From a virus, in the IMG/VR virus record IMGVR_UViG_3300032829_000258, positions 1-30,347 of that record: a stretch of 30,347 nucleotides of DNA. One strand, 5' to 3'. How positions within the stretch are numbered: position 1 is the first letter of the stretch; the number at the start of each line of letters is the position of its first letter. Of this stretch, positions 4,734 through 30,347 are shown piece by piece. The notes beneath the pieces were generated by a model. It searched no databases. It saw only the letters and a list, made by a program, of their open reading frames with translations, and was not told where the DNA came from. Made by a program: the position numbers and the translations under genes.

Positions 4734-5544
4734 GACCATTGACTCCATTGCGCTCCGTCGCGCCGTTGGTGCCCTTTGGAGGCCGGCTGTCCGTTCCGGC
4801 CGCCCGGAAATGCTCCGCCGCGATCTGCCAGCCCTCCGCGGCCTGGCTCGGACTCCACTCGATCAGCCGTTGCGGCCATCGGCGATTTGCGCCGAGGTCG
4901 CGTAAGAACCGCATCGTCTCGTTGCTGCCCAGCTTCGTGTCCCGGGCGCGGGCCTTGCGGTATAGCTCCTTGCCGTCTGCCGGCGCTGCCACCTTCGGCA
5001 ACCCATTGAGCACCAGCGGCTCACCGACTGATGTTTGGCGAGGGTCTCCTGGCCCCGCCGTCCGCCCACCGACTGATGTTCGGCGCGGGTCTCCTGACCC
5101 CGCCATCCGCCCACGGTCGACTGCCCCTCTCGCCGCCGCCCCGTCGTCGTCCTCGCACGCCAGTGACAGGATCGCCAGCAGGGCATAGCGGCGAATGTAA
5201 GTGATGGCCGACCCCAGGCGCTGGGGATCCGACCAGGCCGCCACCACCGGGATTTCGCTGGCGATCCACTGGCCCGACTGGTGCAAGACCGTGGTTCGCA
5301 GGTAGCTCAGATGCTGGATCCGACCGTCGGTGTGCTGCGTCTTGCACGGCACAAACGTCTGCGTGACTGCCAGCCCGGCCTGGGCAAGCGCCGGGCGAAT
5401 CGTCTCCATCACCGCGGCCAGGTCGGCGTAGCGGTACACCCGCGTGCCCGCCTGGGCCTCCTGGGTCTTCGAGACAGACTCGACGTGCGACTGAAACTGC
5501 ACGAGTGCGGCGCTCAAAATTTCGATCTTCTCAGAGCTGTTCAT
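4726..5544 (-). CDS. ERF-family single-strand annealing recombinase
   Basis: 272 residues, the usual size for ERF proteins. Conserved ERF blocks are visible: YRYADLAAVMETIRPAL with the following QAGLAVTQ (about 37-62) and LGSAITYIRRYALL with the following CEDDDG (about 110-135). ERF proteins anneal single strands in phage recombination and in restarting or circularising replication. GGAG lies 8 nt before the ATG. The gene overlaps the primase-helicase by 8 nt, so recombination and replication proteins are probably made together. Between the conserved core and the C-terminal region sits a duplicated 15-residue segment (about residues 144-173) that is not part of the family core; it is listed separately. 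Confidence 0.9.
   Translation of the reverse strand: MNSSEKIEILSAALVQFQSHVESVSKTQEAQAGTRVYRYADLAAVMETIRPALAQAGLAVTQTFVPCKTQHTDGRIQHLSYLRTTVLHQSGQWIASEIPVVAAWSDPQRLGSAITYIRRYALLAILSLACEDDDGAAARGAVDRGRMAGSGDPRRTSVGGRTAGPGDPRQTSVGEPLVLNGLPKVAAPADGKELYRKARARDTKLGSNETMRFLRDLGANRRWPQRLIEWSPSQAAEGWQIAAEHFRAAGTDSRPPKGTNGATERNGVNGHV
5023..5112 (-). repeat. two 45-bp direct repeats inside the ERF gene
   Basis: Units 5023-5067 and 5068-5112 differ at four positions. Each encodes 15 residues, GRMAGSGDPRRTSVG and GRTAGPGDPRQTSVG. Because 45 is a multiple of three, the reading frame is kept. I recall similar GDPRRTSVGG-type repeats as dispersed elements in planctomycete genomes, but cannot check that here. 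Confidence 0.85.
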
Positions 5545-7928: not shown

Positions 7929-8153
7929 ATGAACCTTCACTCTTTTGTGGCTTCGGAGGAGATCCGTGTTGATGCCTGCCGGGCCATCTCCGTCGCCATC
8001 GCGAGGATCGTGGCCAGTCCGGAAAAGGTCTGGAGTCCGGAGTCGCTGAAGATCACGGCCGAAGCCCTGGGCGCGGCGATGGCCGCCGGGCATGAGGCCT
8101 TCATGTCTGGACCTCTTCGAAGTAAGCCCGAAGAGCCTTGTGAAGTTCAGTAA
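7929..8153 (+). CDS. small hypothetical protein (74 aa)
   Basis: Starts MNLHSFVASEEIRVDACRAI. AAAGGA lies 6-7 nt before the ATG. Residues about 10-60 are likely helical (ISVAIARIVASPEKVWSPES). It runs convergent to, and overlaps by about 50 nt, the minus-strand gene ending at 8101. No domain recognised; the good ribosome binding site is the main support. Confidence 0.45.
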   Translation: MNLHSFVASEEIRVDACRAISVAIARIVASPEKVWSPESLKITAEALGAAMAAGHEAFMSGPLRSKPEEPCEVQ

Positions 8154-8277
8154 GGTATTCGGCCTGCTGTCTGGCGTTCTGCTTGGGATCGTTGGCGCCG
8201 GCAACAAAGATCCGCCCGGCCTTCACCATCTCCGTTAGCAGGTACAGCGCCTTCTCATTCGCCTCGGATTTCGTCAT
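8101..8277 (-). CDS. small hypothetical protein (58 aa)
   Basis: Starts MTKSEANEKALYLLTEMVKA, in the lower part of a longer open frame. GAGGGG lies 8 nt before the ATG at 8277, which decides the start. It is probably a helical bundle (QQAEYLTELHKALRAYFEEV). It lies between the attachment-site candidate and the leftward terminator at 7683-7734, which likely ends its transcript. Function unknown. Confidence 0.55.
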   Translation of the reverse strand: MTKSEANEKALYLLTEMVKAGRIFVAGANDPKQNARQQAEYLTELHKALRAYFEEVQT

Positions 8278-8319
8278 TGATTCGGCCCCTCGGCCAGCGA
8301 GAGAGGAAAAGCCCGCCAA

Positions 8320-8361
8320 TATGCCCGGGGGGATTTGAACCCTCAACCTTTGGCTCCGGAG
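8320..8361 (-). other. attachment-site (attP) core candidate: 3' half of tRNA-Arg(CCG)
   Basis: On the minus strand the sequence fits tRNA positions 32-73. CTCCGGA (8355-8361) is an anticodon loop with anticodon CCG, then GCCAA (3' anticodon stem), AGGTT (variable loop), GAGGG-TTCAAAT-CCCCC (T-arm, one A.C mismatch), CGGGCAT (3' acceptor strand) and A73. No 5' half (acceptor strand, D-arm, TTGGC stem) precedes it. A tRNA 3' half starting exactly at the anticodon loop, 85 bp from an integrase gene, is the classic form of an att core that restores the host tRNA on integration. The core contains the palindrome CTCCGGAG (8354-8361). Confidence 0.7.
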
Positions 8362-8445
8362 GGTTGTGGTTATTTGTGAGCGCCCGGGACGTTTGGGCGA
8401 TCTGCGGGTTAGGTCTTCAGGGAGACCGACACACCTGGGGATCTG

Positions 8446-9363
8446 ATGATGCATAAACGCCACACATGGGCGGCGTTCGCCGACGACGTGCTTGCCCTGT
8501 ACGCGCCGCCGATCCGCCGCAAAGCGACCTGGCGAAAGCTCGAACACGTCCTGCGTGAGTTTCAGCCGCTGTGCCGCTATTCCGAGGACCTCACGCCCTC
8601 CGTCGTTGCCGCCTGGATCGCGGCCCACCCGGGACGGAGGCCCGCGACCGTCGATTCCTTCTTGCGGAGCTTGCGGGCCGCTTGCAATTACGGGATGTCC
8701 GCAGGGTATCTCCGCGAAAGTCCGTTTGCCTTTCGGTCGCCCCGACACTGGGTTGATTGGAGTGTTGAGCCGCTCCCTCCGGCAGTGCACACCGCCGAGG
8801 AGATCGCCCGGGTGCTGGCGCGGGCTGATTTCGAAGCCCAGGCCGGCCGCTGGCGCAATCTCAGGCTCAGGGCGGTGATTTATACCGCCGCGTTCACGGG
8901 GGCCCGCAAACGCGAGATTCTTGCCGCTTGCGTGGCCGATTTGCAACTAGACCAGGGGCTGATGACGATCCGGCCGAACGCCCGACGGCCGCTCAAGACC
9001 CCGAGCTCGGCCGCGCAGATCCCGCTGGCGCCCCCGCTGGTTGCCGTGCTGGAGGGGTGGGTTGCAATCTGCGGGTCCCCCTGGCTCTTCCCCGGCATCC
9101 GTCGTCAGGGCCCCTGGCTCGAGGGGCCGGCTGGCGCCAAGGCGCTCGACCAAGTCAAAGGCCTGGGATTGCGGGCCGGCGTGCGGGGCCTGACGTTCCA
9201 GAGCTTCCGCCACAGCCTGGCATCGCTGAGCGAGGGGTGGGGAATCGGCGAGCTGGCGCTGCAGCGACTGCTGCGCCATTCGAGCCCGAGGACCCAGGAA
9301 TACTACCGCCACGCGATCCCCGCCGTGCTCCGTGATGTGGCGGCGCGGATCCACTTTCCTTGA
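8446..9363 (+). CDS. int: tyrosine recombinase / phage integrase
   Basis: 305 residues. The N-terminal half (about 1-110) is a helical core-binding domain. The catalytic domain shows Arg154 in TGARKREIL, Lys184 after the beta turn, Arg255-His256 in FQSFRHSLAS, His278 in LLRHSSPRT and Tyr287 in QEYYRH, nine residues after that His as in XerD. The usual His three residues before the second Arg is Gln252, a tolerated variation in some members. The enzyme would recombine attP with the host tRNA gene. It starts at one of two adjacent ATGs (8446 or 8449) after GGGG. It reads away from the tRNA-Arg half-site, as is common. Confidence 0.92.
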   Translation: MMHKRHTWAAFADDVLALYAPPIRRKATWRKLEHVLREFQPLCRYSEDLTPSVVAAWIAAHPGRRPATVDSFLRSLRAACNYGMSAGYLRESPFAFRSPRHWVDWSVEPLPPAVHTAEEIARVLARADFEAQAGRWRNLRLRAVIYTAAFTGARKREILAACVADLQLDQGLMTIRPNARRPLKTPSSAAQIPLAPPLVAVLEGWVAICGSPWLFPGIRRQGPWLEGPAGAKALDQVKGLGLRAGVRGLTFQSFRHSLASLSEGWGIGELALQRLLRHSSPRTQEYYRHAIPAVLRDVAARIHFP

Positions 9364-9450
9364 GGCGACCCCTCATCCGCCCTCCGGGCACCTTCTCCCC
9401 GGTGGAGAAGGGCGCGCGGAAACGGCCGTGCCCCAGGGAGAGCACGGCCG
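9364..9450. repeat. REP-like palindromic element after the integrase gene
   Basis: CCTTCTCC (9391-9398) and GGAGAAGG (9404-9411) form a short hairpin preceded by CCCTCATCCGCCCTCCGGGC, the hallmark of a REP-type repeat common in bacterial chromosomes. A second hairpin, CGGCCGTG (9423-9430) with CACGGCCG (9443-9450), follows. Either may end the integrase mRNA. The rest of 9451-9586 holds one DnaA-box-like TGTGGATAA (9539-9547) and no gene. Confidence 0.55.
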
Positions 9451-9586
9451 AATCTTGAACGCTGGTCCCGGGCGGGTCGCCGCAACGGTCGGCACGACGA
9501 CGCTGTCGTTCTAAGCCCTCACTCTACTCTTGCAATCGTGTGGATAAAAGAGGACATTGAGGCAGGAAATGCCGAAAGGAGGGCCG

Positions 9587-10323: not shown

Positions 10324-11360
10324 TCGGTAATTGCCCAAGGACCGTTCCAGTTAGCCCCGAGCCCCGTCAATCCCGAGAAGGAACCGGACGCCGTGAATGG
10401 AATGGGGCACGTGTACGAGCCCGAGTTCGTGACGCCCAGGGTGTTACTACAACATCCAAAGCCGCACGTCCACGCCGCGGTGCAACCGCTCCCGGTTATC
10501 GTTGCGCCGTCTCCGAACTTTGTGGGGTCGGTCTGGTTTATCACCCACGCTGCGGTGAAGCCCAGCCCCGCCCCAAAGGCCCACTGACCGGACCAGCTTA
10601 CGGTACATGAGCCCGTTGGCGCGGCATTGCAATTCTTGCAGGGACCGCCCGTACACGTGCCCAAGCCTTGCCATATACTGTTCCCGGCGATTGGGCAGTA
10701 GAGCAGCGTAATCGATCCGACCGCGCACGTCGCATAAAGAGTCGTCGCAATCGGGTAGGCGCAATTGTAGTTTGAGCCGGCGCACGTGTAGCCGGTTGCT
10801 GGCAGGAGGTTAACGATATTCGGGAGACCAGACCCAATGCATCCCGCGTTTATCGTGAACGTGCCGGATTGAGGGACGAATCGGGGAGCCGAAACGCTCC
10901 AGGTGTAGGTTCCCGGAGTGCAAAGGGGGAAAGTTACCTGACCCGAACTATTTGTCGTTCCCGACACGCAACCAGCCGAGACGGCCGCGCCGGGCAATGG
11001 TAGACCATTGCAACCATAGACCGTCACGGTATAGCCCGTGCCCGTCGGGCTGTCCGTCACGTTGACGTTAGTCGTTCCTGGGCATGTCACATTGACGGTT
11101 GTGCTGCCGCCGATGAATCCGGTTTTGCCCCACGAAATCGTGTAGCTGCCCGATCCTCCCGAGGTAATGTCAATGCAGCAAGAGCCACCGGAGCCCGTCG
11201 TGCAAGTGCCCCCGGCTGGTCCGGTGACGGTGACGGTCTCGCCGCTTACGGGAGTCCCGTTGCAGTAAGTAATCCCCACGCAGAGCGTGCACGTCGAGCT
11301 CGACCCGCACGTGCAAGGCGACCCGGCGACCGTCCCGATTGCGAATCGATCGAACGCCAT
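10320..11360 (-). CDS. Cys-rich protein with carboxypeptidase-regulatory-like/Ig-like beta modules
   Basis: 346 residues with 26 cysteines (about 7.5%), many in CxC or CC pairs. Two modules (about 27-95 and 109-171) show the pattern of carboxypeptidase-regulatory-like folds, e.g. VYGCNGLPLPGAAVSAGCVS followed by a 'G.v.f....Gty.w.v' run. The rest is Gly/Thr/Ser-rich beta sequence (about 195-346). No signal peptide or membrane segment is visible, so it is likely a virion component at the tail tip, perhaps disulphide-bonded and receptor-binding. Planctomycete surface proteins are often Cys-rich too. It begins 4 nt after the stop of the preceding gene. Confidence 0.6.
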   Translation of the reverse strand: MAFDRFAIGTVAGSPCTCGSSSTCTLCVGITYCNGTPVSGETVTVTGPAGGTCTTGSGGSCCIDITSGGSGSYTISWGKTGFIGGSTTVNVTCPGTTNVNVTDSPTGTGYTVTVYGCNGLPLPGAAVSAGCVSGTTNSSGQVTFPLCTPGTYTWSVSAPRFVPQSGTFTINAGCIGSGLPNIVNLLPATGYTCAGSNYNCAYPIATTLYATCAVGSITLLYCPIAGNSIWQGLGTCTGGPCKNCNAAPTGSCTVSWSGQWAFGAGLGFTAAWVINQTDPTKFGDGATITGSGCTAAWTCGFGCCSNTLGVTNSGSYTCPIPFTASGSFSGLTGLGANWNGPWAITE

Positions 11361-18046: not shown

Positions 18047-18997
18047 TCAGGTGAACGTCAGGGTGTAGTCTGCCGAGTTCGTCGAGTCGTACTGGTTGGT
18101 GACGGTGAGCGTCTGGAGGAACAGGTCGTTGAGCGCGAGCTGGTCCTCGACCATCGTCAGCAGAGAGTTGGTCTCGAAATTCCAGATCGCGGTGTGCGTC
18201 GTGTTGTTGAGCTCGAACGTGACCGGCGTCTGCACGGTGAGGGCCTCGTACGTCGATCGGTCGTTCGGCGTGACCATGTAGTAATTCTCGGCGACGAGCG
18301 ACGTCGACCGGCCCAGGAGCCGCATGAGCTGGACGTACTGGTTCGTCCAGTACCGCCGGGCGATCACGTTCTTGCACGAGATCTTGAGCGACTGGAAGTT
18401 GGCCCGGGCGCTGGCGATCGTCAGCCCGGAGCTGGCGTGCGTGAACAGATAGGGCCCGGTGGGAAGCTGGGCGTCCGTCGGCGCCGAGGTCGACGGCGGA
18501 CTGGCGAACGCGTTGGGCGTGCTCGCCGAGATGTCGATCGACAGGGCCGCAATCTGGCCGTCCTCGGTGACCTCGAAGTCGTAGCCGTCAACCTTGCAGC
18601 CGGAATAGGACCGCTTGAGGTACGAGCCGTCGGAGAGCTGCACGGCGTGGCACATCCAGGCGCTGGCCAGGTCGCCGGCCGGCTCGGTCGTCGTCCAGGG
18701 CGAGGTCTGCCCGGCGTTGATCCGCGTGCCGCACCAGCCCAGAAGCATTGCCGAATAGGGGCCGGCGTAGAGCTTGGTCGTGAGCCGCCCCTTGAGCTCG
18801 GTCTTGTCGCTCACCCGAAAGGCGTCGATCGCCAGGCCGCCGCCGTAGGGCACGGAGACCATGACTGGCCGCGGCCGCATGGTGAAGGCGTTGCCGCCGT
18901 CGAGCCGGACGTAGAACGCATTCGTGCCGACGGTCGGCGACCCGGTCGGCGTGTTGAATGCGGATTCGGTCTGCCAGTAGAGCCACTCGCGAGCCAT
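18047..18997 (-). CDS. major tail tube-like protein (316 aa)
   Basis: Starts MAREWLYWQTESAFNTPTGS, a typical tail-tube beginning ('...ES.fGT.....'). The sequence is beta-rich throughout with a TFELNN...IWNFETNS region near residue 257-276 and a beta-rich C-terminus. AAGGAGGG stands upstream of the ATG, the strongest site in this part of the operon and consistent with high expression of a major structural protein. It lies between connector/terminator-type genes and the tape measure, as tail-tube genes do. An alternative is another beta-rich minor tail protein. Confidence 0.65.
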   Translation of the reverse strand: MAREWLYWQTESAFNTPTGSPTVGTNAFYVRLDGGNAFTMRPRPVMVSVPYGGGLAIDAFRVSDKTELKGRLTTKLYAGPYSAMLLGWCGTRINAGQTSPWTTTEPAGDLASAWMCHAVQLSDGSYLKRSYSGCKVDGYDFEVTEDGQIAALSIDISASTPNAFASPPSTSAPTDAQLPTGPYLFTHASSGLTIASARANFQSLKISCKNVIARRYWTNQYVQLMRLLGRSTSLVAENYYMVTPNDRSTYEALTVQTPVTFELNNTTHTAIWNFETNSLLTMVEDQLALNDLFLQTLTVTNQYDSTNSADYTLTFT

Positions 18998-20371: not shown

Positions 20372-20773
20372 TCAGTAAACCGAGATAGGTGTCGTTCGGT
20401 CGGGGTCGATACCGAACGGGTCGGCGTTGCCGGCCGTGATCAGGGTTGTCAGACCCGGAGCGACCGAAAAGACGTCGGCGTCGGGGCTCAGATGCATCGT
20501 TCGGTCGGGGTCGATACCGAACGGGTCGGCGTTGCCGGCCGTGATCAGGGTTGTCAGACCCGGAGCGACCGAAAAGACGTCGGCGTCGGGGCTCAGATGC
20601 ATCGTTCGGTCGGGGTCGATACCGAACGGGTCGGCGTTGCCGGCCGTGATCAACGTCGCGGCGAAGTCATTGGGAAGGAAGAGCGCGACGATGCCGCCGG
20701 ACTCGATCAGACGGTACGAGCCCGATTCGAGCAGTCGGCCCGAGCCATTTTCGAGTAATCTCCGATAGCTCAC
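20372..20773 (-). CDS. repeat-containing virion protein (133 aa), GTG start
   Basis: The GTG at 20773 overlaps the preceding stop (GTGA). The first 40 residues (YRRLLENGSGRLLESGSYRL onward) carry a short internal 'RLLESGS' repeat. The rest is two full and one partial copy of a 35-residue unit that includes LITAGNADPFGIDPDRT and SPDADVFSVAPGL. The unit is rich in Asp/Pro and may bind Ca2+ or form a repetitive fibre. Copies are identical at DNA level, implying recent expansion. Function unknown; placed between the fibre-like and connector-like genes. Confidence 0.6.
   Translation of the reverse strand: MSYRRLLENGSGRLLESGSYRLIESGGIVALFLPNDFAATLITAGNADPFGIDPDRTMHLSPDADVFSVAPGLTTLITAGNADPFGIDPDRTMHLSPDADVFSVAPGLTTLITAGNADPFGIDPDRTTPISVY
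20393..20652 (-). repeat. perfect 105-bp tandem repeat (2.5 copies)
   Basis: Units start at 20393, 20498 and 20603; the first two are complete and identical as far as I can read, and the third matches for 50 bp (to 20652) before diverging. The period is 105 bp, so copy-number change keeps frame in the 133-residue protein. Confidence 0.93.
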
Positions 20774-21063: not shown

Positions 21064-22449
21064 TTACCCCACTGTTTCGAGTGTGAGTCCGTAAAGCGTG
21101 AGAGATTGGCCGGTGACGGATTCGTTGGCCTGAAGATCGAAAGTTTGGGAGGCGTTGGTAGCAATTGATTTGCTGGCTAGACCGCCTGTGGTCGCGGGGT
21201 TAAAGCAGCCCTGGTTTCCGTTTATGGTGTTAGGGTTATTTGCCGCTTGGTACGTAAACTCGCCGACAGTCCAAAAGGTGCCAGTGCCGCTAGAAATGGC
21301 TGTACAACAGATTCTCGCTCTTACGCGCCACGAGTAAGAGGTCTTGCTTGCCGTCCAGGATATTCCGCCCGTCGTCCCTATCGTGGTCCCCGCCAGGAGC
21401 AACACGATCGTGATAGTCCCTTGGCTCGAGCTCGTCGTGAATGTGCCGAATGCTTCAACGACCAACTTTTGCCCGACGGCCCACCAGTTCGCCGGCAGAA
21501 CGACCGTGCCGACCGCGCCGCTCGTGTTGACCAGCGTCGTCTGCCCGGTCGTCGCCAGCGTGACGCTCGTGGTCTGGCTGTAAATCAGTCCGCCGCGATA
21601 GACAGTAAGCCCATGCTGCCCGACCGCTTCGCACAACTGCGTTGAGTCGTTCCACTGGTCTCCGTCTGCTGGCGAGCCGGGCGCAGACTGCGACGCGCTG
21701 CTGAGCTGGCCTGAACTGCCGATTGTCCAATTCGCTGCCCCGGCGAATGAGCTGCTGCTGTTGTACTGGATCTGGCCGGACGACCCGCCCGGAGAACCAG
21801 AGCCCCCCGCCGGGACTGCCCAGGTCGCATCCTCGCGGAGAAAATGCGTCGTCCCGGCCGAGCTGCCCGGATCGGGCACCAGGCCCGCCGCGTGCGAGCC
21901 GCCCGAGGCCCCCATCGCCGGCAAGTACGTCGCGGCGATCGCGGTCCCCTGCCAGATACCAGAGCCGATCGTGCCCAGGGTGGTGATGGACGCCGAGCCC
22001 GCCCAACTGCTTAGATTGCTGATCTGGCTCGTCGTGATGCTGCCGGTGATGCTGGCTGCGTTGCCGCTGATGTTGCCCGAAACAATCCCGCCGCTGATGG
22101 CCGTCAGCCAGGAGGGGCTGCTGTAGCTGCCGGTCGTCAGCACGACGCCCGACAGCCCGGCGCCCGAGCCGGTGGGCGTCAAATAGTCCGTGCCGGCAGT
22201 CGCCGTCGAGACAACTCCCGCCGCTGCCTTGAGGAGCCCGGTAAGCCCGGTCGGCAGCGTGACCGTGCCGGTGAATGCTGGCGAAGCGAGTGGCGCCAGG
22301 CCGACGAGCGAGACCAGGCTCGATAGCGTGACGCGCTTGTTCGTGCCCGTCGCCGCAAACGTCGTATCGTGGACGTCGAGAATCTCCACCTCGTCGTCCG
22401 TGTGGTACGTCGTGTAAAGCGTCAACGATGAAATAGGTTCGTCAGCCAC
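21064..22449 (-). CDS. tail fibre-like protein (461 aa), GTG start
   Basis: Starts (M)ADEPISSLTLYTTYHTDDEV. The N-terminal third has the 'LAPLASPAFTGTVTLPTG' pattern typical of phage tail-fibre proteins. The middle is Gly/Ser/Thr-rich with repeated short strands (TTLGTIGSGIWQGTAIAATY), as in trimeric beta fibres. The C-terminal domain (about 290-461) is a compact beta domain and probable receptor-binding tip. It would recognise the host surface. GAGGT lies 6 nt before the GTG. Its location inside the head-proximal half of the operon is unusual; head fibres or spikes are an alternative. Confidence 0.75.
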   Translation of the reverse strand: MADEPISSLTLYTTYHTDDEVEILDVHDTTFAATGTNKRVTLSSLVSLVGLAPLASPAFTGTVTLPTGLTGLLKAAAGVVSTATAGTDYLTPTGSGAGLSGVVLTTGSYSSPSWLTAISGGIVSGNISGNAASITGSITTSQISNLSSWAGSASITTLGTIGSGIWQGTAIAATYLPAMGASGGSHAAGLVPDPGSSAGTTHFLREDATWAVPAGGSGSPGGSSGQIQYNSSSSFAGAANWTIGSSGQLSSASQSAPGSPADGDQWNDSTQLCEAVGQHGLTVYRGGLIYSQTTSVTLATTGQTTLVNTSGAVGTVVLPANWWAVGQKLVVEAFGTFTTSSSQGTITIVLLLAGTTIGTTGGISWTASKTSYSWRVRARICCTAISSGTGTFWTVGEFTYQAANNPNTINGNQGCFNPATTGGLASKSIATNASQTFDLQANESVTGQSLTLYGLTLETVG

Positions 22450-22458
22450 AACGAGACC

Positions 22459-22860
22459 TCAGTACGGCGCCGTGTCGGATAGCTTGGGGATGATGATCGC
22501 GGGCTGAAGCGTCACGGTCGTTCCCGCGGCCGTCCCCAGCGCCTGCTGGAAGAGCACGACGTTGCCGGCCGGGGCGACGGGGAAACCGCTCGTTCCCGAG
22601 GCCACCGTGAGCGTGGTCGACGCTGGCACGAGCTGGGCCGACCAGTAGGTCGTCCAGGTCGAGTTCGCGCCCGGACTGGTCGTCGTGCCGGCGAACGCGA
22701 GGACCGCCTGCTGTTGCTGCGGCAGGGACTGGCCGAACGACGGCGACTGATAGATTCCCTGGACCGTGATCTGCGACCCGGAGTCGGGTAGCTGGACGTT
22801 CATGCGCAGGGCGGCGTTATTGATGCCGTCTCCGGCCGCCGCGCTCACCGTGATAGGCAT
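22459..22860 (-). CDS. hypothetical virion protein (133 aa)
   Basis: The ATG at 22860 (MPITVSAAAGDGINNAALRM) begins 2 nt past the preceding stop; the upstream part of the longer frame is shadow sequence of the neighbouring gene. Wholly beta-like, Ser/Thr/Gly-rich (TTLTVASGTSGFPVAPAGNV). It resembles a small decoration or fibre-accessory protein; no family recognised. Confidence 0.55.
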   Translation of the reverse strand: MPITVSAAAGDGINNAALRMNVQLPDSGSQITVQGIYQSPSFGQSLPQQQQAVLAFAGTTTSPGANSTWTTYWSAQLVPASTTLTVASGTSGFPVAPAGNVVLFQQALGTAAGTTVTLQPAIIIPKLSDTAPY

Positions 22861-22862
22861 GG

Positions 22863-23306
22863 TCAGAACCCCGAGAGTTGGAGGTAGCCGCCGACATAGA
22901 AGTCCATGACCTGGTTTGCCGACGACGTGCCCAGAACCGCCTGGAGCGCGTTGCCGCCAATGACCATGGGCTGCGTCTCGAACATCTGGGCGGCCGGCGA
23001 GGTGGCGAACACGGAGGCGCGGGCGACCGGCATCGTGCCGCTCTGGAGCTGAATGTCGACCTCGCTGGCGCCCGCCGTACTGGCGTTGAAGTCGGTGATG
23101 TAGAGCACCATCCCGCCGGGCACCGAAACGATGGGATACGTTGCCAGGGCGTTCGTCGCGTTTGACACGCGCGCGGCACACGAGAACAACGATTGCCCCG
23201 GCGCGAGCGGCCCCGCGGATGATCGGCCGACGAGGGGGGCGACCTCGTACTGATTGCCGTACTGGTCAAACGCCGGTTGTTGCGGCGACGGATTCGGGTA
23301 GGGCAT
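22863..23306 (-). CDS. hypothetical virion protein (147 aa)
   Basis: I use the ATG at 23306 (MPYPNPSPQQPAFDQYGNQY) because GAGGGGGA lies 8 nt before it; a GTG two codons earlier is possible. After a Pro-rich start, the rest is beta-sandwich-like (MVLYITDFNASTAGASEVDI). It overlaps the glycosyltransferase gene by 41 nt. Likely a virion decoration or fibre-base protein; function unknown. Confidence 0.55.
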   Translation of the reverse strand: MPYPNPSPQQPAFDQYGNQYEVAPLVGRSSAGPLAPGQSLFSCAARVSNATNALATYPIVSVPGGMVLYITDFNASTAGASEVDIQLQSGTMPVARASVFATSPAAQMFETQPMVIGGNALQAVLGTSSANQVMDFYVGGYLQLSGF

Positions 23307-23991
23307 TGTCACTCCCCCTCATGACCTTCGAGTCGACCATCCGGACCTGGTTGATCCAGGCCCGGTCGTAATCTGCCATGGTCACGGGTGCGATCCGCAG
23401 GTGATGACACTCCACCTTCGGCGCACACACGACCGGAATTTCGAGCTTGCGGAGCCGCAGAAAGAAGCTGTGATCCTCGCTCAGCTCCTCGTAGCGGGCG
23501 AACGGCTTTTCCTTGAGCTCGGTCTTGATCCGGTCAAACACCTTGCGTTTCGCCCAGAGACACCCGCCGCCCGCGGAATCGACGATCATCGCCGTCGCCT
23601 GGCGGTCCCACTCGACGAGCGGATAAAAGCCGTCTTCCAGCCGCCGGTACAGGACCGGACTGTGCGGGTGCTGGCGGAACTGGTACATGCCTACGACCAC
23701 GTCGGCCTCGGTCTGCGTCGCGACGTTGATCAGGCGGGCCAGGAGATCGGGCTCGAACTGGTGATCCGTGTCGAGCTGCAAGAGCCAGTCGCCGCGCATC
23801 TCCTCGACCATCATGTTCCTGGTGACGTCGTGGACCGAGCAGTGCGGGAATCGCGGGTAGTAGATGAACTCGTTCGGCTGGCAGAAGAACTGCTGGTTCC
23901 AGGCCATCATGTCGATGAACGAGTCGACGAACTGCCCCAGGTAGGCCGGGCAGCCGCCCATGCGGGCCACGGTGCCCAGGTATTTGGTCAT
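23266..23991 (-). CDS. GT-A-type (family 2-like) glycosyltransferase
   Basis: About 241 residues from the ATG at 23991, which overlaps the preceding stop (ATGA); an ATG at 24000 is an alternative. WLLQLDTDHQF holds the D-x-D metal/nucleotide-sugar motif (about residues 74-76), ELSEDHSFFLRL near 170 the acidic acceptor-site motif, and VECHHLRIAP near 193 the downstream His motif seen in such enzymes. It would transfer a sugar from a nucleotide donor. Directly after the fusion gene, it probably acts on the same glycan, perhaps decorating the capsid or fibre. Hydroxymethylated-DNA glucosylation is less likely without base-modifying genes. Confidence 0.78.
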   Translation of the reverse strand: MTKYLGTVARMGGCPAYLGQFVDSFIDMMAWNQQFFCQPNEFIYYPRFPHCSVHDVTRNMMVEEMRGDWLLQLDTDHQFEPDLLARLINVATQTEADVVVGMYQFRQHPHSPVLYRRLEDGFYPLVEWDRQATAMIVDSAGGGCLWAKRKVFDRIKTELKEKPFARYEELSEDHSFFLRLRKLEIPVVCAPKVECHHLRIAPVTMADYDRAWINQVRMVDSKVMRGSDNALPESVAATTGV

Positions 23992-25607
23992 ACTGAGCAT
24001 GCGAGAACTCCGTGGCCGTCAAACGGCGGTGCGCCTGTGAAGTCGTAATGAATCGGCTCGACCTTGGTCTCCTTGAGGCCAGCCGCGGCCAGCCACTGGC
24101 GTATCCGGGACAGCGGCACGCGGTGCGTGTGGTAGCCGGGGCTGTCACCGTCGTACATTCGTTTCTCGGCCCCGCCGCTCTGCTCCTCGAAAGTCCGGTG
24201 ATCATCGGGGACCGTCAGCACGATCTGACCGCCCTGGGCGAGCACGTTTTTGGCGTTAAAGAGAGTCCTGATCGCTTCCTCGTCGGTGAAATGCTCGAGC
24301 ACCTCGCCGATCACGACGCTATCGAACGACTCCGGCGGGAAGGGTAGCGGCTCACGGCAATCGTGCAGCACGTCGACCACGTTCTCCCAGCCGCACGGGT
24401 CGGTCTGCTGGATATCGAGATTGACCCCGCCGCGCTGGCCGAACCGGGGAAAGTCGCGGTTGCTGCCGATGTTGAGCACCCGGCCGTTTCCGTGCCGGAT
24501 CTGGAAATCCATCTGACAGCCCCAGACGTCCGTCGCGTATTCCTCGTATTGCCTCGCGATCTTGTCCCAGGTGAACTTGTCGCGGGCCCAGGCCATCATG
24601 CCGGGGCGAATCTTCGCCTGGCGGTCGGCGTCGCGGGCCAGGGCGACCAGCTCGGCGACGTAGTTTGCCTTGACGAGCGGGTCTTTCGGGTCGCCCTCGA
24701 TCCAGGTCCCGTGCCGCACGTTGTCGGCCAGGGCCCAGACGGGCGCCGTGAGCGGAATGGCGCCGAGCGCCTGCGCTTCCATGCACGTGACACAGCTCGT
24801 TTCGGTGAACTTCGTCGGATAGCACCAGATGCCCGCCGACAGGAATTCGCGGTAAAGATCGCGCTGGTTCATGCGGCCGAGCCACGTCGCGCCGGTCTCG
24901 GCGACCAGGGCCTCGCATTCCGCCTTGAGCCGGATGAGCTGCTGGTCGGCCGCGGCCTTGTCGATATTGTTGAAGCCGTACGCCGCACTGAGCTTAAGCC
25001 GCGGCTCGAACTCCCGGGCCCGCTTGAAGATCTTCAGCAAATCGGCCAGGCCGCGGTCGGGTGAGCTGGTGAAGACGACCTTGAACGGGTCGCGTTCAAT
25101 TCCCTCTGCTTCGACCTCCTCGACCAGCTCGACCTTGAGCCCGTTGGAACTCAGGCCGATCTTGCCGTTCATCTCCGGGTATTCGCCCAGGAGGTAGCGC
25201 ACATGGGCATTGCAGAGCCCGATCAGGATGTCGAGCTTCGCCGCCCGCTCGTGCGTCAGGCCCCACGAGGAGGTTGCGGGATAGGCCACGTCCTGGCAGA
25301 CCAGCCAGAGCTTCTGGAACGGGTGCGGATCGGGAAACCGGTCGATGTCCGCGGGACATCGGGAGAGAACCCACATTCCGCGGGCGGTGAAATCCGCTTC
25401 CTCGCACCGGAACCACTTCGCCCCGCCCTTGTCGATGGGCGGGCAGTCGTCGCGGATCGGCGCGTAGACCTTGACGGCGTGACCGAGGCGAGCGAGCCGC
25501 CAGGCCAGCTCGACGACGGCCGTTTCGCTGCCGCCGATGCCCGTGTCGTCGGGCGTGCGATGATCCCACCGCTCGTAATAGAGCGGCGCGTAAAAGTGAT
25601 AGTCCAT
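23988..25607 (-). CDS. fusion of a GT-B (family 4-like) glycosyltransferase and a SAM-dependent methyltransferase
   Basis: 539 residues. N-terminal GT part (about 1-360): TGIGGSETAVVELAWRLARL (22-41) is the acceptor-side glycine loop, and TETSCVTCMEAQALGAIPLT (268-287) is the donor-site E-x7-E segment (E269, E277). C-terminal class I methyltransferase part (about 375-539): RVLNIGSN (376-383) is motif I, NLDIQ its acidic partner, and LPFPPESFDSVVIGEVLEHF (421-440) the post-motif II region. Such methyltransferases cap or trim glycans. GGAG lies 10 nt upstream. The following gene is a second glycosyltransferase. Confidence 0.85.
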   Translation of the reverse strand: MDYHFYAPLYYERWDHRTPDDTGIGGSETAVVELAWRLARLGHAVKVYAPIRDDCPPIDKGGAKWFRCEEADFTARGMWVLSRCPADIDRFPDPHPFQKLWLVCQDVAYPATSSWGLTHERAAKLDILIGLCNAHVRYLLGEYPEMNGKIGLSSNGLKVELVEEVEAEGIERDPFKVVFTSSPDRGLADLLKIFKRAREFEPRLKLSAAYGFNNIDKAAADQQLIRLKAECEALVAETGATWLGRMNQRDLYREFLSAGIWCYPTKFTETSCVTCMEAQALGAIPLTAPVWALADNVRHGTWIEGDPKDPLVKANYVAELVALARDADRQAKIRPGMMAWARDKFTWDKIARQYEEYATDVWGCQMDFQIRHGNGRVLNIGSNRDFPRFGQRGGVNLDIQQTDPCGWENVVDVLHDCREPLPFPPESFDSVVIGEVLEHFTDEEAIRTLFNAKNVLAQGGQIVLTVPDDHRTFEEQSGGAEKRMYDGDSPGYHTHRVPLSRIRQWLAAAGLKETKVEPIHYDFTGAPPFDGHGVLACSV

Positions 25608-25669: not shown

Positions 25670-26125
25670 TCAGGAAATGTTCTTGCCCATGTTCCCGTAG
25701 AACACGGACTGACTAACCGCGACGACGTCGATCAGGTCGACGTAAGCAGTCACCGAAGAAAGCGTCTTGGTACCGCCGACGGCGGTGAAACCACTCGGCC
25801 AGACCACGTAGGACAGTCCGCCGGTGGGCTGAGTGATGTAGAGGCTGATCTTCTGACCGGCCATCTGGTTGGCGAACAGGGGCCAGATCGTCTGCCCGGC
25901 CGTCGGCTGATACTGGAAGATCGACGCCGTCGACCAGTCGATCGTGAACGAGTTGGTCACGGTCGCCGTGCCTGCGAGGGCGCCGACGCCGGCCGGCTTG
26001 GCCTGCCACTGGCCGGCGTTGCCGACGGGCACAAAGCCCTGCGGCGGATTGTTGTCGACGGGGTCGGTCACGGTGAGTGAGCTGGGGCCGACTCCCTGGC
26101 TCGTAATGGTGCCTTGCACGATCAT
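25670..26125 (-). CDS. capsid decoration-like protein, paralogue B (151 aa)
   Basis: Starts MIVQGTITSQGVGPSSLTVT; AAGGAG 8 nt before the ATG. From about residue 55 it closely matches the neighbouring 157-residue protein (shared blocks YQPTAGQTIWPLFANQ, ITQPTGGLSYVVWP, GGTKTLSSVTAYVD, SQSVF.GN.GKN.S). The beta-rich sequence, duplication and place directly after the capsid gene suggest a decoration or cement protein. No other evidence of role. Confidence 0.7.
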   Translation of the reverse strand: MIVQGTITSQGVGPSSLTVTDPVDNNPPQGFVPVGNAGQWQAKPAGVGALAGTATVTNSFTIDWSTASIFQYQPTAGQTIWPLFANQMAGQKISLYITQPTGGLSYVVWPSGFTAVGGTKTLSSVTAYVDLIDVVAVSQSVFYGNMGKNIS

Positions 26126-26137
26126 GGGAGCGACTCC

Positions 26138-26611
26138 TTACGACACGTTCTTGCCGAGGTTGCCGATGAACACGGACTGGCTGACGCAGTTGACGACGCA
26201 GAAATCGACGTACGCCGTGACGCTCGACAGCGTCTTGGTACCGCCGACGAACGTGATACCCGCCGGCCAGACGACGTACGACAGACCGCCGGTGGGCTGG
26301 GTGATCACCAGCGAGATCTGCTGGCCCGGGGTCTGGTTGGCGAAGAGGGGCCAGATCGTCTGGCCCGCGGTGGGCTGGTACGCAAACACGCTGGCCTGCG
26401 ACCAGTCGATGTTGAAGCTGTTGGTGACGGTCGCCGTCGCCGAGGTGAGGCCGCAGAGCGAGGGTTGCATCTTCCAGCCCGAACCGGTCCCGACGGGCTG
26501 CGCGTTGGCCGTGTAGGGCAACGTGTCGCCGTTGGGATTGGCCGTCGAGATGAGCGTGTTCATCTGCCCCGCAATGGGTGCGGGGCCCTGCGCCTGGAGA
26601 TTGGTCTGCAT
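26138..26611 (-). CDS. capsid decoration-like protein, paralogue A (157 aa)
   Basis: Starts MQTNLQAQGPAPIAGQMNTL; AAAGGGG 7 nt before the ATG. It is the first gene after the capsid gene (13 nt gap). The C-terminal 100 residues match the following protein closely, the N-terminal 50 hardly at all, so the pair arose by duplication with divergence of the outer or attachment part. Likely a capsid cement/decoration protein made in large amount. Confidence 0.7.
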   Translation of the reverse strand: MQTNLQAQGPAPIAGQMNTLISTANPNGDTLPYTANAQPVGTGSGWKMQPSLCGLTSATATVTNSFNIDWSQASVFAYQPTAGQTIWPLFANQTPGQQISLVITQPTGGLSYVVWPAGITFVGGTKTLSSVTAYVDFCVVNCVSQSVFIGNLGKNVS

Positions 26612-26624
26612 GGACAGGCCCCTT

Positions 26625-28013
26625 TCAGCAGTTGATGACGACGCCGAAGTCGGGACGGATCACGCCCAGGGCGTAGCCGAAATCGACGGTCACAAAGAGG
26701 GCCTGGTAGATGTGTACGTAGGACACCATGACGCGGAGGGGAATCCCCATGAGGTCGATGTAGCTCACGTCGACGACATTGCGGGCCTCGTCGGGCGTGG
26801 CGATCGGCCGCAGGGCCAGAGCGATGGCGTACTGGTGCAGCGCCAGGTTGGTGTAGCTCTGCACCGTCGCCGTCTGTCCGGCGCCGGCGTCCACGGCCAG
26901 GATCGGGGTCGCCAGCGTGACGCTCGTCGCCGAGCTGTAGGTGGCGATCTGGTAGAGGTTCGGGTTGGCCGTCGTGTTGTTGCTGAAGCTCAGCCACTGG
27001 CCAACGCTGGCCGCGGTGAAGTTGGTGCCCGATCCAGTGACCGTCGTGCTGCCCGCCGTGGTGGTCACGGTGCCCGCGACGTTGGTGATGAGCCGGGCCG
27101 TGGTCGTCACGCTGCCCGAGCTGACCAGGCTTGACGGGATCGACGAGCTGAGCACCAGGTTGGTGTCATTGCTGACGCTCGACACCTTGTACTGGGTCTT
27201 GGTCGAGTCGTTGCCGAACACCAGGTAGTAGCCGGCCAGAGAGGAACCGCTGGCGGCGGTGGTGAAGTTGGTGTTCAGGCCGACGACGGCGGTAGAGCCG
27301 CTGGTGATCGTCACCTGGCCGTAGAGGATCGTGCCCGATGCGGTCGGCATCTGCTGATCCCAGACGGGCTGGAAGTTGAAGGCGTTTTGCAGGCTGGCAG
27401 TTGTGCGGGCCTGCTGCGCGATCGCCGCGGCGACCAAGCTTTCCTGCACCCAGCCGGCGTCGCCGAGCATCTTCTGGTACACGCGGTTGTGCACGCACAT
27501 CCGGAGCTTGTCCGGGTCGTCGAGGGGCACCTTCTGATCGGCCAGCACGCCCCAGGCGTTGAGCTGATCGGCGACCGTGACCTCGCCCTGCGTCGCCCCG
27601 TAGATGGGCGCGTTGGCGTTGAAGTTGGCCGAGGTGATCAGCGCGGCGATCTGACCGTTGAGGTACTCACGCGCCCTCTTGTAGAGCGGGTCGAAGAACT
27701 TCGTGGCCAGGTCGACGGCGGTCTGCCACTGCTCGAAGTCCTGGAACTGGAGCGCGGCGCCGGGGCGGTTCTGGAAGACCAGGGGCACGTAATTGGGCGC
27801 GACGCTCTGCCCGGACAGGATGCCATTTCCCACGTTGGACAGGGGTCCAAAATCTGGGAAATACACATCAACAGTTTTACCTATTCTTGCGGCCTCGGGC
27901 TTGACGTCCTTGTGCACGGCGTTCAGGAGCGCGGTCTGTCCGACCTTGGCCTTGTTGTATTCGTCGGCCCCGGCCACGAGGGTCTCGAAGAATGCTGAGA
28001 AATTGTTCGCCAT
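26625..28013 (-). CDS. major capsid protein, P22 coat-like, with two inserted beta modules
   Basis: 462 residues. N-terminal part: FFETLVAGADEYNKAKVGQT, then GKTVDVYFPDFGP (46-58) and FQDFEQWQTAVDLATKFFDP (90-109), like P22-type coat proteins. C-terminal part: IDLMGIPLRVMVSYVH (419-434) followed by VDFGYALGVIRPDFGVVI, the P22-type end. Between them lie two related beta modules, about 228-295 and 312-385, each with a 'GST.V.G..TNF' start and a 'Y.v.s.....lvL' end. P22 coat has an insertion domain too, but this one looks duplicated. It forms the icosahedral shell. GGAG lies 10 nt before the ATG. A scaffold-like gene precedes it. Confidence 0.82.
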   Translation of the reverse strand: MANNFSAFFETLVAGADEYNKAKVGQTALLNAVHKDVKPEAARIGKTVDVYFPDFGPLSNVGNGILSGQSVAPNYVPLVFQNRPGAALQFQDFEQWQTAVDLATKFFDPLYKRAREYLNGQIAALITSANFNANAPIYGATQGEVTVADQLNAWGVLADQKVPLDDPDKLRMCVHNRVYQKMLGDAGWVQESLVAAAIAQQARTTASLQNAFNFQPVWDQQMPTASGTILYGQVTITSGSTAVVGLNTNFTTAASGSSLAGYYLVFGNDSTKTQYKVSSVSNDTNLVLSSSIPSSLVSSGSVTTTARLITNVAGTVTTTAGSTTVTGSGTNFTAASVGQWLSFSNNTTANPNLYQIATYSSATSVTLATPILAVDAGAGQTATVQSYTNLALHQYAIALALRPIATPDEARNVVDVSYIDLMGIPLRVMVSYVHIYQALFVTVDFGYALGVIRPDFGVVINC

Positions 28014-28073: not shown

Positions 28074-28295
28074 TCAAACAAAAGGGACGTGCGGCGGGTG
28101 ATTCGCGGAGCAGATCGAGTGCTCGACGATGGCGATCGCGACGTAACGATCGAAGTTGAAGTTGCACGGGTTGAAGCGAGGCAGTCGCACGGCGTCGTGC
28201 AGGGCCCGGGCGATCACCGCCCGGTATTGTTCGCCGTGGATCGCGACGTAGCGGTCCACTTCGGACGCGGGCAGATCAGCGAATGACTGGGCCAC
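28074..28295 (-). CDS. small hypothetical protein (73 aa), GTG start
   Basis: The GTG at 28295 (MAQSFADLPASEVDRYVAIH) has GGAG 9 nt upstream and overlaps the scaffold-like gene by 20 nt. Charged, helical N-terminal half; 'DRYVAI' occurs twice (near residues 14 and 49). Unknown function; a capsid-assembly accessory is possible from its place between scaffold and capsid genes. Confidence 0.5.
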   Translation of the reverse strand: MAQSFADLPASEVDRYVAIHGEQYRAVIARALHDAVRLPRFNPCNFNFDRYVAIAIVEHSICSANHPPHVPFV

Positions 28296-28923
28296 CGCTC
28301 AGGGCTCCGCTGGCATGCGAGACCGCGGCCTTGATGTACTCCTTGTTTCGTGGGTCGAGCATGAACTTGGGGTCGGCCATCTGGTCAGAGGTCAATCGCG
28401 GGACGGTCGTATTCCGGTCAGCCCGGCCGCCGCCGGCGGGCCTGGCCGCGGTCGCCGGGATCTCCAGCCCGCTGCGGGTCTTGGCAGGAGGAGCGGCTGC
28501 CGCGGGGCTGTCGGCAGCCTCGAAGGCGAAATCCGCCTCGGTCTTCAAACCGTCCAGCAGCTCGGCGAGCTTGGCGTCGTCGGGCTCATCCTTGTCGGCC
28601 TGGTACTCGGCGAGCTTCCAGAGGTGCTTGACCGCGGCGGGCTTGGCGCCCTTCTCGGCGGCGAGCTCGGCGAAGCGGTCGTACGCCGTCTTGTCGCGGA
28701 GCTGCTGCTTGAGCGCGGCGAGTTCCTTGGTCTGCTCGTCGGGGTCGGCGACCTTGGCCTTGAGCGCGGCGAGCTCCTTCTGGGCGTCTTCGAGCGCTTT
28801 CTGCGCGGCGTCTCGCTCGAGCTTGAACTCTCGCATTTTGCCGCCCATCTTGGCGATCTTGCCCGGAGAGAGCGTGACCGGCTGAGTGGCGGGAGTCTCC
28901 TTGGTGGGTGCGGCTGCGGCCAT
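28276..28923 (-). CDS. scaffold-like protein with coiled coil (215 aa)
   Basis: Starts at the ATG at 28923, overlapping the preceding stop (ATGA), with AAAGG 8 nt upstream. Residues about 25-80 are a long charged coiled coil (RDAAQKALEDAQKELAALKA). A Pro/Ala-rich, probably disordered, region (about 145-180) and a short C-terminal helix follow (LTSDQMADPKFMLDPRNKEY). This is the layout of scaffolding proteins, which bind coat protein during assembly and leave before packaging, and its gene lies upstream of the coat gene as usual. Confidence 0.75.
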   Translation of the reverse strand: MAAAAPTKETPATQPVTLSPGKIAKMGGKMREFKLERDAAQKALEDAQKELAALKAKVADPDEQTKELAALKQQLRDKTAYDRFAELAAEKGAKPAAVKHLWKLAEYQADKDEPDDAKLAELLDGLKTEADFAFEAADSPAAAAPPAKTRSGLEIPATAARPAGGGRADRNTTVPRLTSDQMADPKFMLDPRNKEYIKAAVSHASGALSGGPVIR

Positions 28924-29435
28924 CACTTACCTTTCGTCATCTTGGACAGGAAGAGGGGTAGGCCCATGTCTTTGATCAGTTGCTGCTTGCGGTCGCCCTC
29001 GAGGTAGAGCTTGTCGAGGTCGCGGGCGTAGCCGTGGAACTTCTCGTTGATCGCCCGGTAGCTTGCCCGGTCGGCCGGGTCGCTGGCGTTCTTGCGCGCG
29101 GCGTTCGCCGCCTCGAACACGGCCTGGTGAGCGGCTCGCAGGCCGTCGATCGTGTCACATGCCTGCTCGAAGGCGTCGGGCGCGTTGTCGGCGTAGGACG
29201 TGTCGCCGAGGTTCGTGTCGACCGTCGCGCCCAGCTCCATCAAGGTCTTGCGGCAATCATGCTGCCGGCAAACCGCCTCGCGATGCCGCTTGTGAAACCA
29301 CTTCTTGAGCTTCGGATAAGCGGTCGTACCGTCCTTGAAAGCGTGCTCTTGCTTGTGCCACTTCTCGCTCGCCGTGAACTCGGCGTCATGCGCGGCCTGG
29401 AGGGCGTCGATGAGATCAGAATCGGGGGAATCCAC
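28923..29435 (-). CDS. bacterioferritin-like four-helix protein (170 aa), GTG start
   Basis: The GTG at 29435 has GAGGG 8 nt upstream. The helical sequence aligns by eye with bacterioferritin: DAEFTASEKWHKQEH (17-31) corresponds to the first helix with its Glu (Glu19), HKRHREAVCRQHDCRKTLME (48-67) to the second helix (its ExxH appears as C56-x-x-H59), EKFH (131-134) to the second ExxH, and LIKDMGLPLFL (153-163) to the family C-terminus 'LIqKMGLqnYL'. The iron site is thus only partly conserved. Bacterioferritins store iron; here, between portal and scaffold genes, it may be a structural use of the fold. An unrelated helical bundle is the alternative. Confidence 0.6.
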   Translation of the reverse strand: MDSPDSDLIDALQAAHDAEFTASEKWHKQEHAFKDGTTAYPKLKKWFHKRHREAVCRQHDCRKTLMELGATVDTNLGDTSYADNAPDAFEQACDTIDGLRAAHQAVFEAANAARKNASDPADRASYRAINEKFHGYARDLDKLYLEGDRKQQLIKDMGLPLFLSKMTKGK

Positions 29436-29436
29436 G

Positions 29437-29598
29437 TCAGAACCCTCTTTCTGGTGGGCAGGTCATTTCGCCCTTGATTGCGCAGTTCACGAAGAACACG
29501 CCGAGGGCAACTTTCCACCCGCCCGACCAGATCAGAAGTCCGTAGCCGATCACATAGAGGACGGCGGTTGCGATTAGCCTTTCGCGATAGGTCGGCAT
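29437..29598 (-). CDS. very small membrane protein (53 aa)
   Basis: The ATG at 29598 overlaps the portal gene's stop (TGATG), with AGGAGG 10 nt upstream. It starts MPTYRERLIATAVLYVIGYG. Hydrophobic stretches at about 8-24 and 27-41 (WKVALGVFFVNCAI) suggest one or two membrane passes; the C-terminus is CPPERGF. Between portal and the bacterioferritin-like gene. A holin-like or minor virion role is possible; unassigned. Confidence 0.55.
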   Translation of the reverse strand: MPTYRERLIATAVLYVIGYGLLIWSGGWKVALGVFFVNCAIKGEMTCPPERGF

Positions 29599-30347
29599 CA
29601 CGTCGCGTCCTCCTCGGGATCGGTGTCATCGCTCTTGGTTGCCGCGGCGGCTTTCATCTGGTCAGCCTGGCGCGCGTCTTGCTCCTCGCTGGGCATCGTC
29701 GCCGAGCCGACTGGCGTCAGCTCTTGCGGGAGAATGTCCTTGATCTGCTCCTCGTCCTTGGCGACTTGCTTGATCTGCTCGACGGCCTGGTCGTGCGTGA
29801 GGCCGTACCGCTCCATGCAGACCGTGATCCGCGACTTGAGCCCCACCTGCATCTCCCACTCGTCGCTCTGGTCGCGTTCCGGGCCGGGCACGGGAATCCG
29901 CGGCTCGGCCCAGGCGAGCAGCAGTTGCAGGGTCTGGGCCTGGCTGACCAGGTCGGCATGCCCGTAGTGGTTGCCGGCGGCGGTCAAAATCACGCGGGCC
30001 AGGGCGAGCTCGACCATCTGGTAGAGCTTGCGGCGTTTCTTCGCACGCAGGAGGAGCGGCGCGGTCTTGATGATCAGGCTCACGCCCGACGGTGCGTCGC
30101 TGTACTCGAGCTCGAGGGCGCTCCATGGCAGGTCGATCGCGTTGGCCGTCTGCTTGATGTACTTCTCGAGGTCGACCCAGATGTCCTGAATCGCGAGCGT
30201 CGCCTGGAGATACTCGGCCGACGGTTCGCCCGTGTCGCCGTAACCCTCGCCGGTGTAGCCCGTGCCGCCGCGCACCAGTCGCAGGAACCGGCCGGGCCCC
30301 ACCTCGGGCGTGAACGCGGGCCCGACGTTCTTGAACACGCCGATCGG
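29598..30347 (-). CDS. portal protein, C-terminal part (5' end outside the window)
   Basis: The frame is open through the right edge (PIGVFKNVGPAF... at the boundary), so the gene starts outside; about 250 residues are visible. The early part (about residues 40-120 of the visible piece) is rich in helix: YLQATLAIQDIWVDLEKYIK, then LLLRAKKRRKLYQMVELALA, like the wing/stem region of phage portals. The end is acidic and Ala-rich (MKAAAATKSDDTDPEEDAT). The portal is the DNA gate between head and tail. It heads the structural operon in the order portal, scaffold, coat. The call rests on this order and helix pattern. Confidence 0.65.
   Translation of the reverse strand, partial: PIGVFKNVGPAFTPEVGPGRFLRLVRGGTGYTGEGYGDTGEPSAEYLQATLAIQDIWVDLEKYIKQTANAIDLPWSALELEYSDAPSGVSLIIKTAPLLLRAKKRRKLYQMVELALARVILTAAGNHYGHADLVSQAQTLQLLLAWAEPRIPVPGPERDQSDEWEMQVGLKSRITVCMERYGLTHDQAVEQIKQVAKDEEQIKDILPQELTPVGSATMPSEEQDARQADQMKAAAATKSDDTDPEEDAT

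Follow-up and report, generated by a model that had tools for sequence, protein, structure and literature searches.

A glycosyltransferase–methyltransferase fusion and its partner glycosyltransferase in the virion operon of an environmental virus: a putative pathway for a methyl-capped glycan

INTRODUCTION

The closest described counterparts of the locus analysed here are found in cluster O mycobacteriophages, in which an O-methyltransferase gene and three glycosyltransferase genes lie between the portal and protease genes and modification of the capsid has been suggested (Cresawn et al., PMC4351075). The capsid and tail tube of Corndog are glycosylated according to Freeman et al. (2023), as quoted in PMC11600133, PMC12363180 and PMC12619734. 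In Firecracker (L060) one methyltransferase gene and several glycosyltransferase genes are located in the virion operon beside head genes. A virus-encoded glycosyltransferase is also known from the archaeal virus STIV, where A197 is essential and the capsid protein is glycosylated (PMC10551542).

Here we analyse a linear, probably partial virus record from IMG/VR, 30,347 bases long, which we refer to as the window. As in Corndog (gp35–38) and Firecracker (gp33–36), its virion operon contains a methyltransferase together with glycosyltransferases. Whereas in those phages the O-methyltransferase is a gene of its own, accompanied by three glycosyltransferases and positioned between portal and protease, in the window it is fused to one member of a pair made up of a GT4-type and a GT-A enzyme. 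Comparison with Firecracker gp33–36 by hhalign gave probabilities below 1%, with single sequences as targets, so that very remote homology might escape. If our preferred reading is right, the cassette works like the Corndog system, as an analogue and not as a detectable homologue. A GT4 that is homologous (31–33% identity) stands right after the major capsid gene in the Manatee Spring podoviruses MW202524 and MW202718 (L008/L009), but there it is fused to a different GT2 domain and ‘gtA’ is not matched by our GT-A profile. These metagenomic genomes carry several glycosyltransferases and two methyltransferases between their capsid and tail genes. The initial annotation had described decoration of the virion as rare and poorly studied; that view needs tempering, as Corndog-type mycobacteriophages are known to glycosylate their virions and to encode a methyltransferase next to the glycosyltransferases in the virion operon (PMC4351075, PMC11600133).

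RESULTS

A GT4-type glycosyltransferase fused to a methyltransferase

Positions 23988–25607 on the minus strand constitute a single unbroken open reading frame with an ATG start, encoding 539 amino acids. Residues 1–361 (24525–25607, minus strand) form a GT4-type domain of the retaining GT-B class, identified by Pfam, AlphaFold and PDB matches, and residues 362–539 plus the stop codon (23988–24524, minus strand) a class I SAM methyltransferase domain. The Pfam matches of the N-terminal part, Glyco_transf_4 (3e-5) and Glycos_transf_1 (1.4e-5), score 24.4 and 25.1 bits against curated cut-offs of 28.5 and 26.4, respectively. The C-terminal part matches Methyltransf_11 at 3.2e-6, with 28.1 bits and thus above the curated cut-off of 21.2. 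An independent contig, L001, contains the same fusion in one reading frame with ~70% identity, which shows that the fusion is no assembly accident. The AlphaFold model is confident (pLDDT 91; pTM 0.74), with an uncertain relative orientation of the two domains. The initial annotation, which had proposed precisely such a fusion from the sequence, is borne out by the Pfam matches, the model and the L001 frame.

Matches to the glycosyltransferase domain fill the fold-match list of the fusion model. Modelled residues 1–361 adopt the two-Rossmann GT-B fold, with MshA (Z 31.8, 2.7 Å over 324 residues) and PimA (Z 29.9) among its PDB matches. Among 30 relatives the N-terminal loop G25-G26 is nearly invariant and the catalytic-type E269 invariant; the second glutamate of the E-x7-E motif, E277 in the window, is Asp in some relatives and Lys in one. 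Judging from this predicted fold, the domain is a standard GT-B enzyme. The closest solved relative of the methyltransferase domain is PDB 3cc8, matched by profile at 1.6e-9. Motif I is atypical, reading LN-G-x-x-x-D instead of D-x-G-x-G-x-G. An acidic D398 (N-x-D398) follows strand 2, D416-x-R418 follows strand 3 and G-E-x-x-E-H, including E438-H439, follows strand 4; N-x-D, D-x-R, E-H and a histidine are invariant across relatives. The SAM-pocket motifs are placed correctly with respect to the predicted strands and SAM binding is predicted. The loss of this pocket had been named beforehand as the finding that would speak against a methyltransferase; the pocket motifs are retained, with motif I unusual. 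An NCBIfam scan returned matches below cut-off, the best of which, for the separate methyltransferase of locus L005, was the oligosaccharide methyltransferase MftM.

A GT-A glycosyltransferase with a probably coupled start

The adjacent gene (23266–24000, minus strand) encodes a 244-residue GT-A glycosyltransferase, recognised by PF00535 (GT2/GT-A; 1.3e-7, 32.2 bits, cut-off 23.3), invariant motifs, its predicted model and its fold matches. Its ATG at 24000 falls 13 nucleotides inside the upstream fusion gene and is preceded by a GGAG motif. The start is common to relatives (‘ML..’) and, taken together, overlap, GGAG and shared start support well the coupled start that had been put forward earlier. 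The GT-A protein of L001, encoded by the next gene, is 75% identical, and the motifs D77-x-D79, E175-D176 and H200 are invariant in 37 relatives.

In the confident GT-A model (pLDDT 88) the closest folds are STIV A197 (2c0n; Z 17.7, 2.4 Å over 162 residues, 19% identity) and the procollagen glycosyltransferase LH3 (Z 17.5), followed by Mimivirus R699 (16.1), yeast Mnn9 (15.9) and COLGALT1 (15.2); matches within 1 Z were counted as ties. A197 is virus-encoded, like the window protein, but belongs to an archaeal virus, matches it very weakly in sequence (E 0.08) and has no noted GT4 or methyltransferase partner. LH3, R699 and COLGALT1 share the GT-A fold (Z 15–17.5), and LH3 and COLGALT1 act on protein side chains, but the three are about 13–15% identical to the GT-A protein and multidomain, with collagen as acceptor. 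Several of the fold neighbours glycosylate protein or glycoprotein acceptors. The model also resembles TarP, TarS and RmlT; since the wall-teichoic-acid enzymes TarP and RmlT lie close behind at Z 14–15, the fold cannot tell the possible acceptors apart. Hydropathy analysis revealed no transmembrane segment in the fusion or the GT-A protein (best 19-residue values 1.19 and 0.94), and a search of cultured phages with the GT-A protein gave no match.

The cassette lies among virion genes

Upstream of the cassette, on the same minus strand, are a portal-like gene (29598–30338; 1.4e-4), a gene for a scaffold-like coiled protein recognised by weak matches alone (28276–28926) and the major head protein gene (26625–28013; phrog_283, 4.6e-23). 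The head protein contains inserted fibre-like, Ser/Thr-rich tandem domains at about residues 232–390, of which residues 312–372 are matched by tail-fibre PHROGs. It is 77% identical to its L001 counterpart, with the inserted block diverging faster than the rest, and it found no match in cultured phages. Two genes separate it from the fusion. One encodes a 157-residue protein, a possible decoration protein with 21% Ser+Thr (26138–26611, minus strand), and the other its 151-residue paralogue, identified by visible similarity and position (25670–26125, minus strand); neither has a family match. On the other side, the gene of a 149-residue protein without significant family match (22863–23312, minus strand) directly follows the GT-A gene and overlaps its end. 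The head protein is a candidate acceptor, as are, by position, the 157- and 151-residue proteins, and the 149-residue protein is a candidate acceptor or structural protein.

Further along the minus strand lie the gene of a small protein (MPITVSAAAGDG...; 22459–22860), related to positions 10754–11161 of L001, and that of a 461-residue Ser/Thr/Gly-rich protein with 29% Ser+Thr (21064–22449), which is fibre-like in sequence character and matches no Pfam or PHROG family. Connector-like genes follow on the same strand before a tail tube-like gene (18047–18997, minus strand; Phage_tube_2, 5e-5). The cassette had been placed among capsid and fibre genes: its location in the virion operon, between the phrog_283 head gene and tail genes, is supported, whereas the fibre label of 21064–22449 rests on sequence character. 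A tyrosine integrase gene (8446–9363) and a primase gene (2346–4748) are located away from the cassette.

GC content is uniform across the cassette, which therefore carries no mark of recent foreign DNA. Among the window genes scanned no sugar-nucleotide pathway was recognised, and we accordingly assume that donors come from the host. Scanning the window for Rfam families and tRNA genes gave no match. At 20392–20652, within the open reading frame 20372–20773, there is a perfect in-frame 105-bp tandem repeat of 2.5 copies (LITAGNADPFGIDPDRT...), either a very recent duplication or an assembly effect. Short repeats of 9–10 bp (ACCGTCAGC / CAACCGTCAG) at 1997–2146, beside replication genes, are possibly iterons.

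The two glycosyltransferases are co-inherited in many viruses

A GT-A profile search found 48 viral loci. Removal of overlapping or duplicate contigs by hand, with the remote matches L055–L057 excluded, left 39 non-redundant loci including the window. In 38 of these a GT4 gene, detected with local HMMs, is on the same strand as the GT-A gene and nearly always adjacent to it; the remaining locus, L035, ends at a contig edge before its methyltransferase gene. Gaps between the two are mostly <1 kb, reaching 1.6–5.3 kb in L015, L020 and L048. As the search was seeded with GT-A alone, this linkage is not built in, with the reservation that the seeds were taken from loci in which the pair is linked. 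The GT4 and GT-A distance matrices correlate with r=0.88, the largest value in 2,000 permutations being 0.27, which indicates that the two enzymes have travelled together; mean pairwise identities are just 42–47%.

In 14 of the 39 loci the methyltransferase forms a fusion with GT4, in another 14 it is a separate gene, in one (L029) it is joined to GT-A, and 10 loci lack it; this distribution requires nine changes on the GT-A tree. When separate, it sits between the two glycosyltransferases, in L005 via a GTGA overlap. Fusion of the methyltransferase to either glycosyltransferase is strong gene-fusion evidence for a single pathway. The earlier idea of two sugar transferases plus a methyl cap gains support from this conserved linkage, the alternative fusions and the structural-gene surroundings across many viruses, well beyond what the window by itself provides. 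The cassette recurs in many unrelated environmental viruses, and a short-pattern-based scan of ~85,000 prokaryote species yielded two weak matches only.

Some loci show variations of the cassette. The GT4–methyltransferase fusion of L020 (6664–8871) has about 200 extra C-terminal residues, and extra weak GT-A paralogues are found near the cassette in L027 (3032–3463 and 6055–6501) and L048 (1317–2386). In L067, a marine single-cell virus (Kyanoviridae) which, like the Manatee Spring podoviruses, comes from outside IMG/VR, positions 8151–9553 encode a remote GT-A/GT4 pair in reversed order.

Flanking genes and a possible tailless lineage

The PHROG scan covered 94 upstream and 100 downstream neighbours. 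Among the first 25 of 42 upstream and of 50 downstream families, the named ones are, by raw counts, mostly head, tail, neck, sheath, baseplate and fibre families. The head families comprise phrog_1357 (3), phrog_283 and phrog_267; tail sheath, major tail, neck, tail terminator, baseplate and tail fibre families are present, as are HNH/homing endonucleases and a small number of glycosyltransferases. Many of the flanking genes are without a family match, and the position of the cassette within the virion operon varies between viruses. Beside the cassette we found no conserved acceptor: the small downstream proteins form three groups, unrelated by profile comparison. This clustering used automatic gene calls, in which the first gene downstream in the window was called in the wrong frame.

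Many loci with a separate methyltransferase (L003–L005, L032–L034, L037–L039, L046, L051, L052 and kin) have neighbours in common. Ten of their neighbour proteins have no PHROG match, and no phrog_2 terminase was found in the larger records L005, L033, L038 and L046. As this terminase is present in just 4 of 30 records overall, most of the viruses are unclassifiable by phrog_2. One record of the lineage examined in full (L061–L063) encodes a HerA-type/DUF87 ATPase and many small hydrophobic proteins. Records L061–L066 group with the lineage of L003, L005, L032–L034, L038, L039, L046 and L051. A conserved downstream protein of ~230 residues is a candidate capsid protein. The lineage may consist of tailless viruses, perhaps an undescribed group, in which case the cassette crosses major virus groups.

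DISCUSSION

On the strength of these observations, we think it probable that the three activities make up one virus-encoded pathway which puts a short, methyl-capped glycan on a virion protein during assembly. In the scheme that we infer, the GT-A enzyme would transfer a first sugar from a host nucleotide-sugar, with the help of a metal, to an amino-acid side chain in one of the structural proteins, and the GT4 domain would add a second. The fused methyltransferase would then use SAM to methylate a hydroxyl of the finished glycan and so end the chain. A protein acceptor for GT-A is suggested by the neighbours of its predicted fold, and candidates would be the head protein or the small proteins on either side of the cassette. 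The benefit may be shielding of the particle or altered adsorption.

What else might the enzymes do? They might instead modify a host surface glycan such as O-antigen, capsule or teichoic acid during infection or lysogeny, and so block superinfection. The relatives of the GT4 domain include the LPS and capsule enzymes PRK15484, HepE and WaaG, the GT-A model resembles TarP, TarS and RmlT, and pelagimyophage glycosyltransferases have been interpreted as host-surface modifiers (PMC7029224). As the virus has a tyrosine integrase and looks temperate, a lysogenic role at the host surface is conceivable. Neither a membrane anchor nor a flippase partner such as GtrA/GtrB was seen, however, the cassette is located in the late virion operon of many viruses and not near lysogeny genes, and the family is nearly absent from cellular genomes. 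We consider a host-surface target unlikely; given the LPS enzymes among the GT4 fold neighbours and the temperate appearance of the virus, we accord it a real minority share and regard it as the main rival reading. A GtrABC serotype-conversion system was considered separately and rejected: neither glycosyltransferase has a transmembrane segment by hydropathy and phrog_841 (GtrB) was matched at just 0.0095.

Two other targets appear far less plausible. Phage glycosyltransferases are known as DNA modifiers (Pyle et al. 2024, as cited in PMC12619734), and the enzymes might glycosylate and methylate phage DNA as a defence against restriction. Yet the thymidylate-synthase family PF00303, which would represent a base hydroxymethylase, was found in 0 of 30 records, mostly partial, against 9 of 14 genomes of the positive control, and no nucleotide-metabolism family is among the flanking families listed. 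A Tet_JBP search was uninformative, its control being silent. Because the records are mostly incomplete and a control worked in just one of the two tests, we retain DNA modification, with a very low probability. Hardly more credible is a small molecule, or a protein other than those of the mature virion, such as a host protein or the scaffold, as the substrate of the glycosyltransferase pair. The small-molecule enzymes MshA and BshA are fold neighbours of the GT4 domain, but its GT-A partner is most like enzymes with protein acceptors and the genomic context is virion morphogenesis. The recurrence of the cassette in many unrelated viruses leads us back to the virion as the site of modification: the product is probably a small sugar, methylated and carried by the virus particle, in the manner shown for a few mycobacterial phages.

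A broader proposal, which we offer tentatively and with more doubt than conviction, is that GT4, GT-A and an optional mobile methyltransferase constitute a transferable virion-glycan cassette, passed on as a whole among unrelated viruses. These would include tailed phages whose head families differ and a lineage of probably tailless viruses with a HerA ATPase. On this proposal, genetically encoded methylated virion glycans would be common in uncultivated viruses and almost absent from cultured ones.

What are the implications for the viruses themselves? Where environmental viral contigs encode glycosyltransferases, the genes are often recorded as auxiliary metabolic genes or as genes acting on the host surface. 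The recognition of phages by antibodies is reported to change when they bear glycan coats (cited in PMC11600133), and consequently particle stability, grazing or adsorption may be affected too. The cassette is a compact three-enzyme system, and a co-inherited set of this kind in the virion operons of diverse viruses points to sugar coats of phage particles as a widespread trait.
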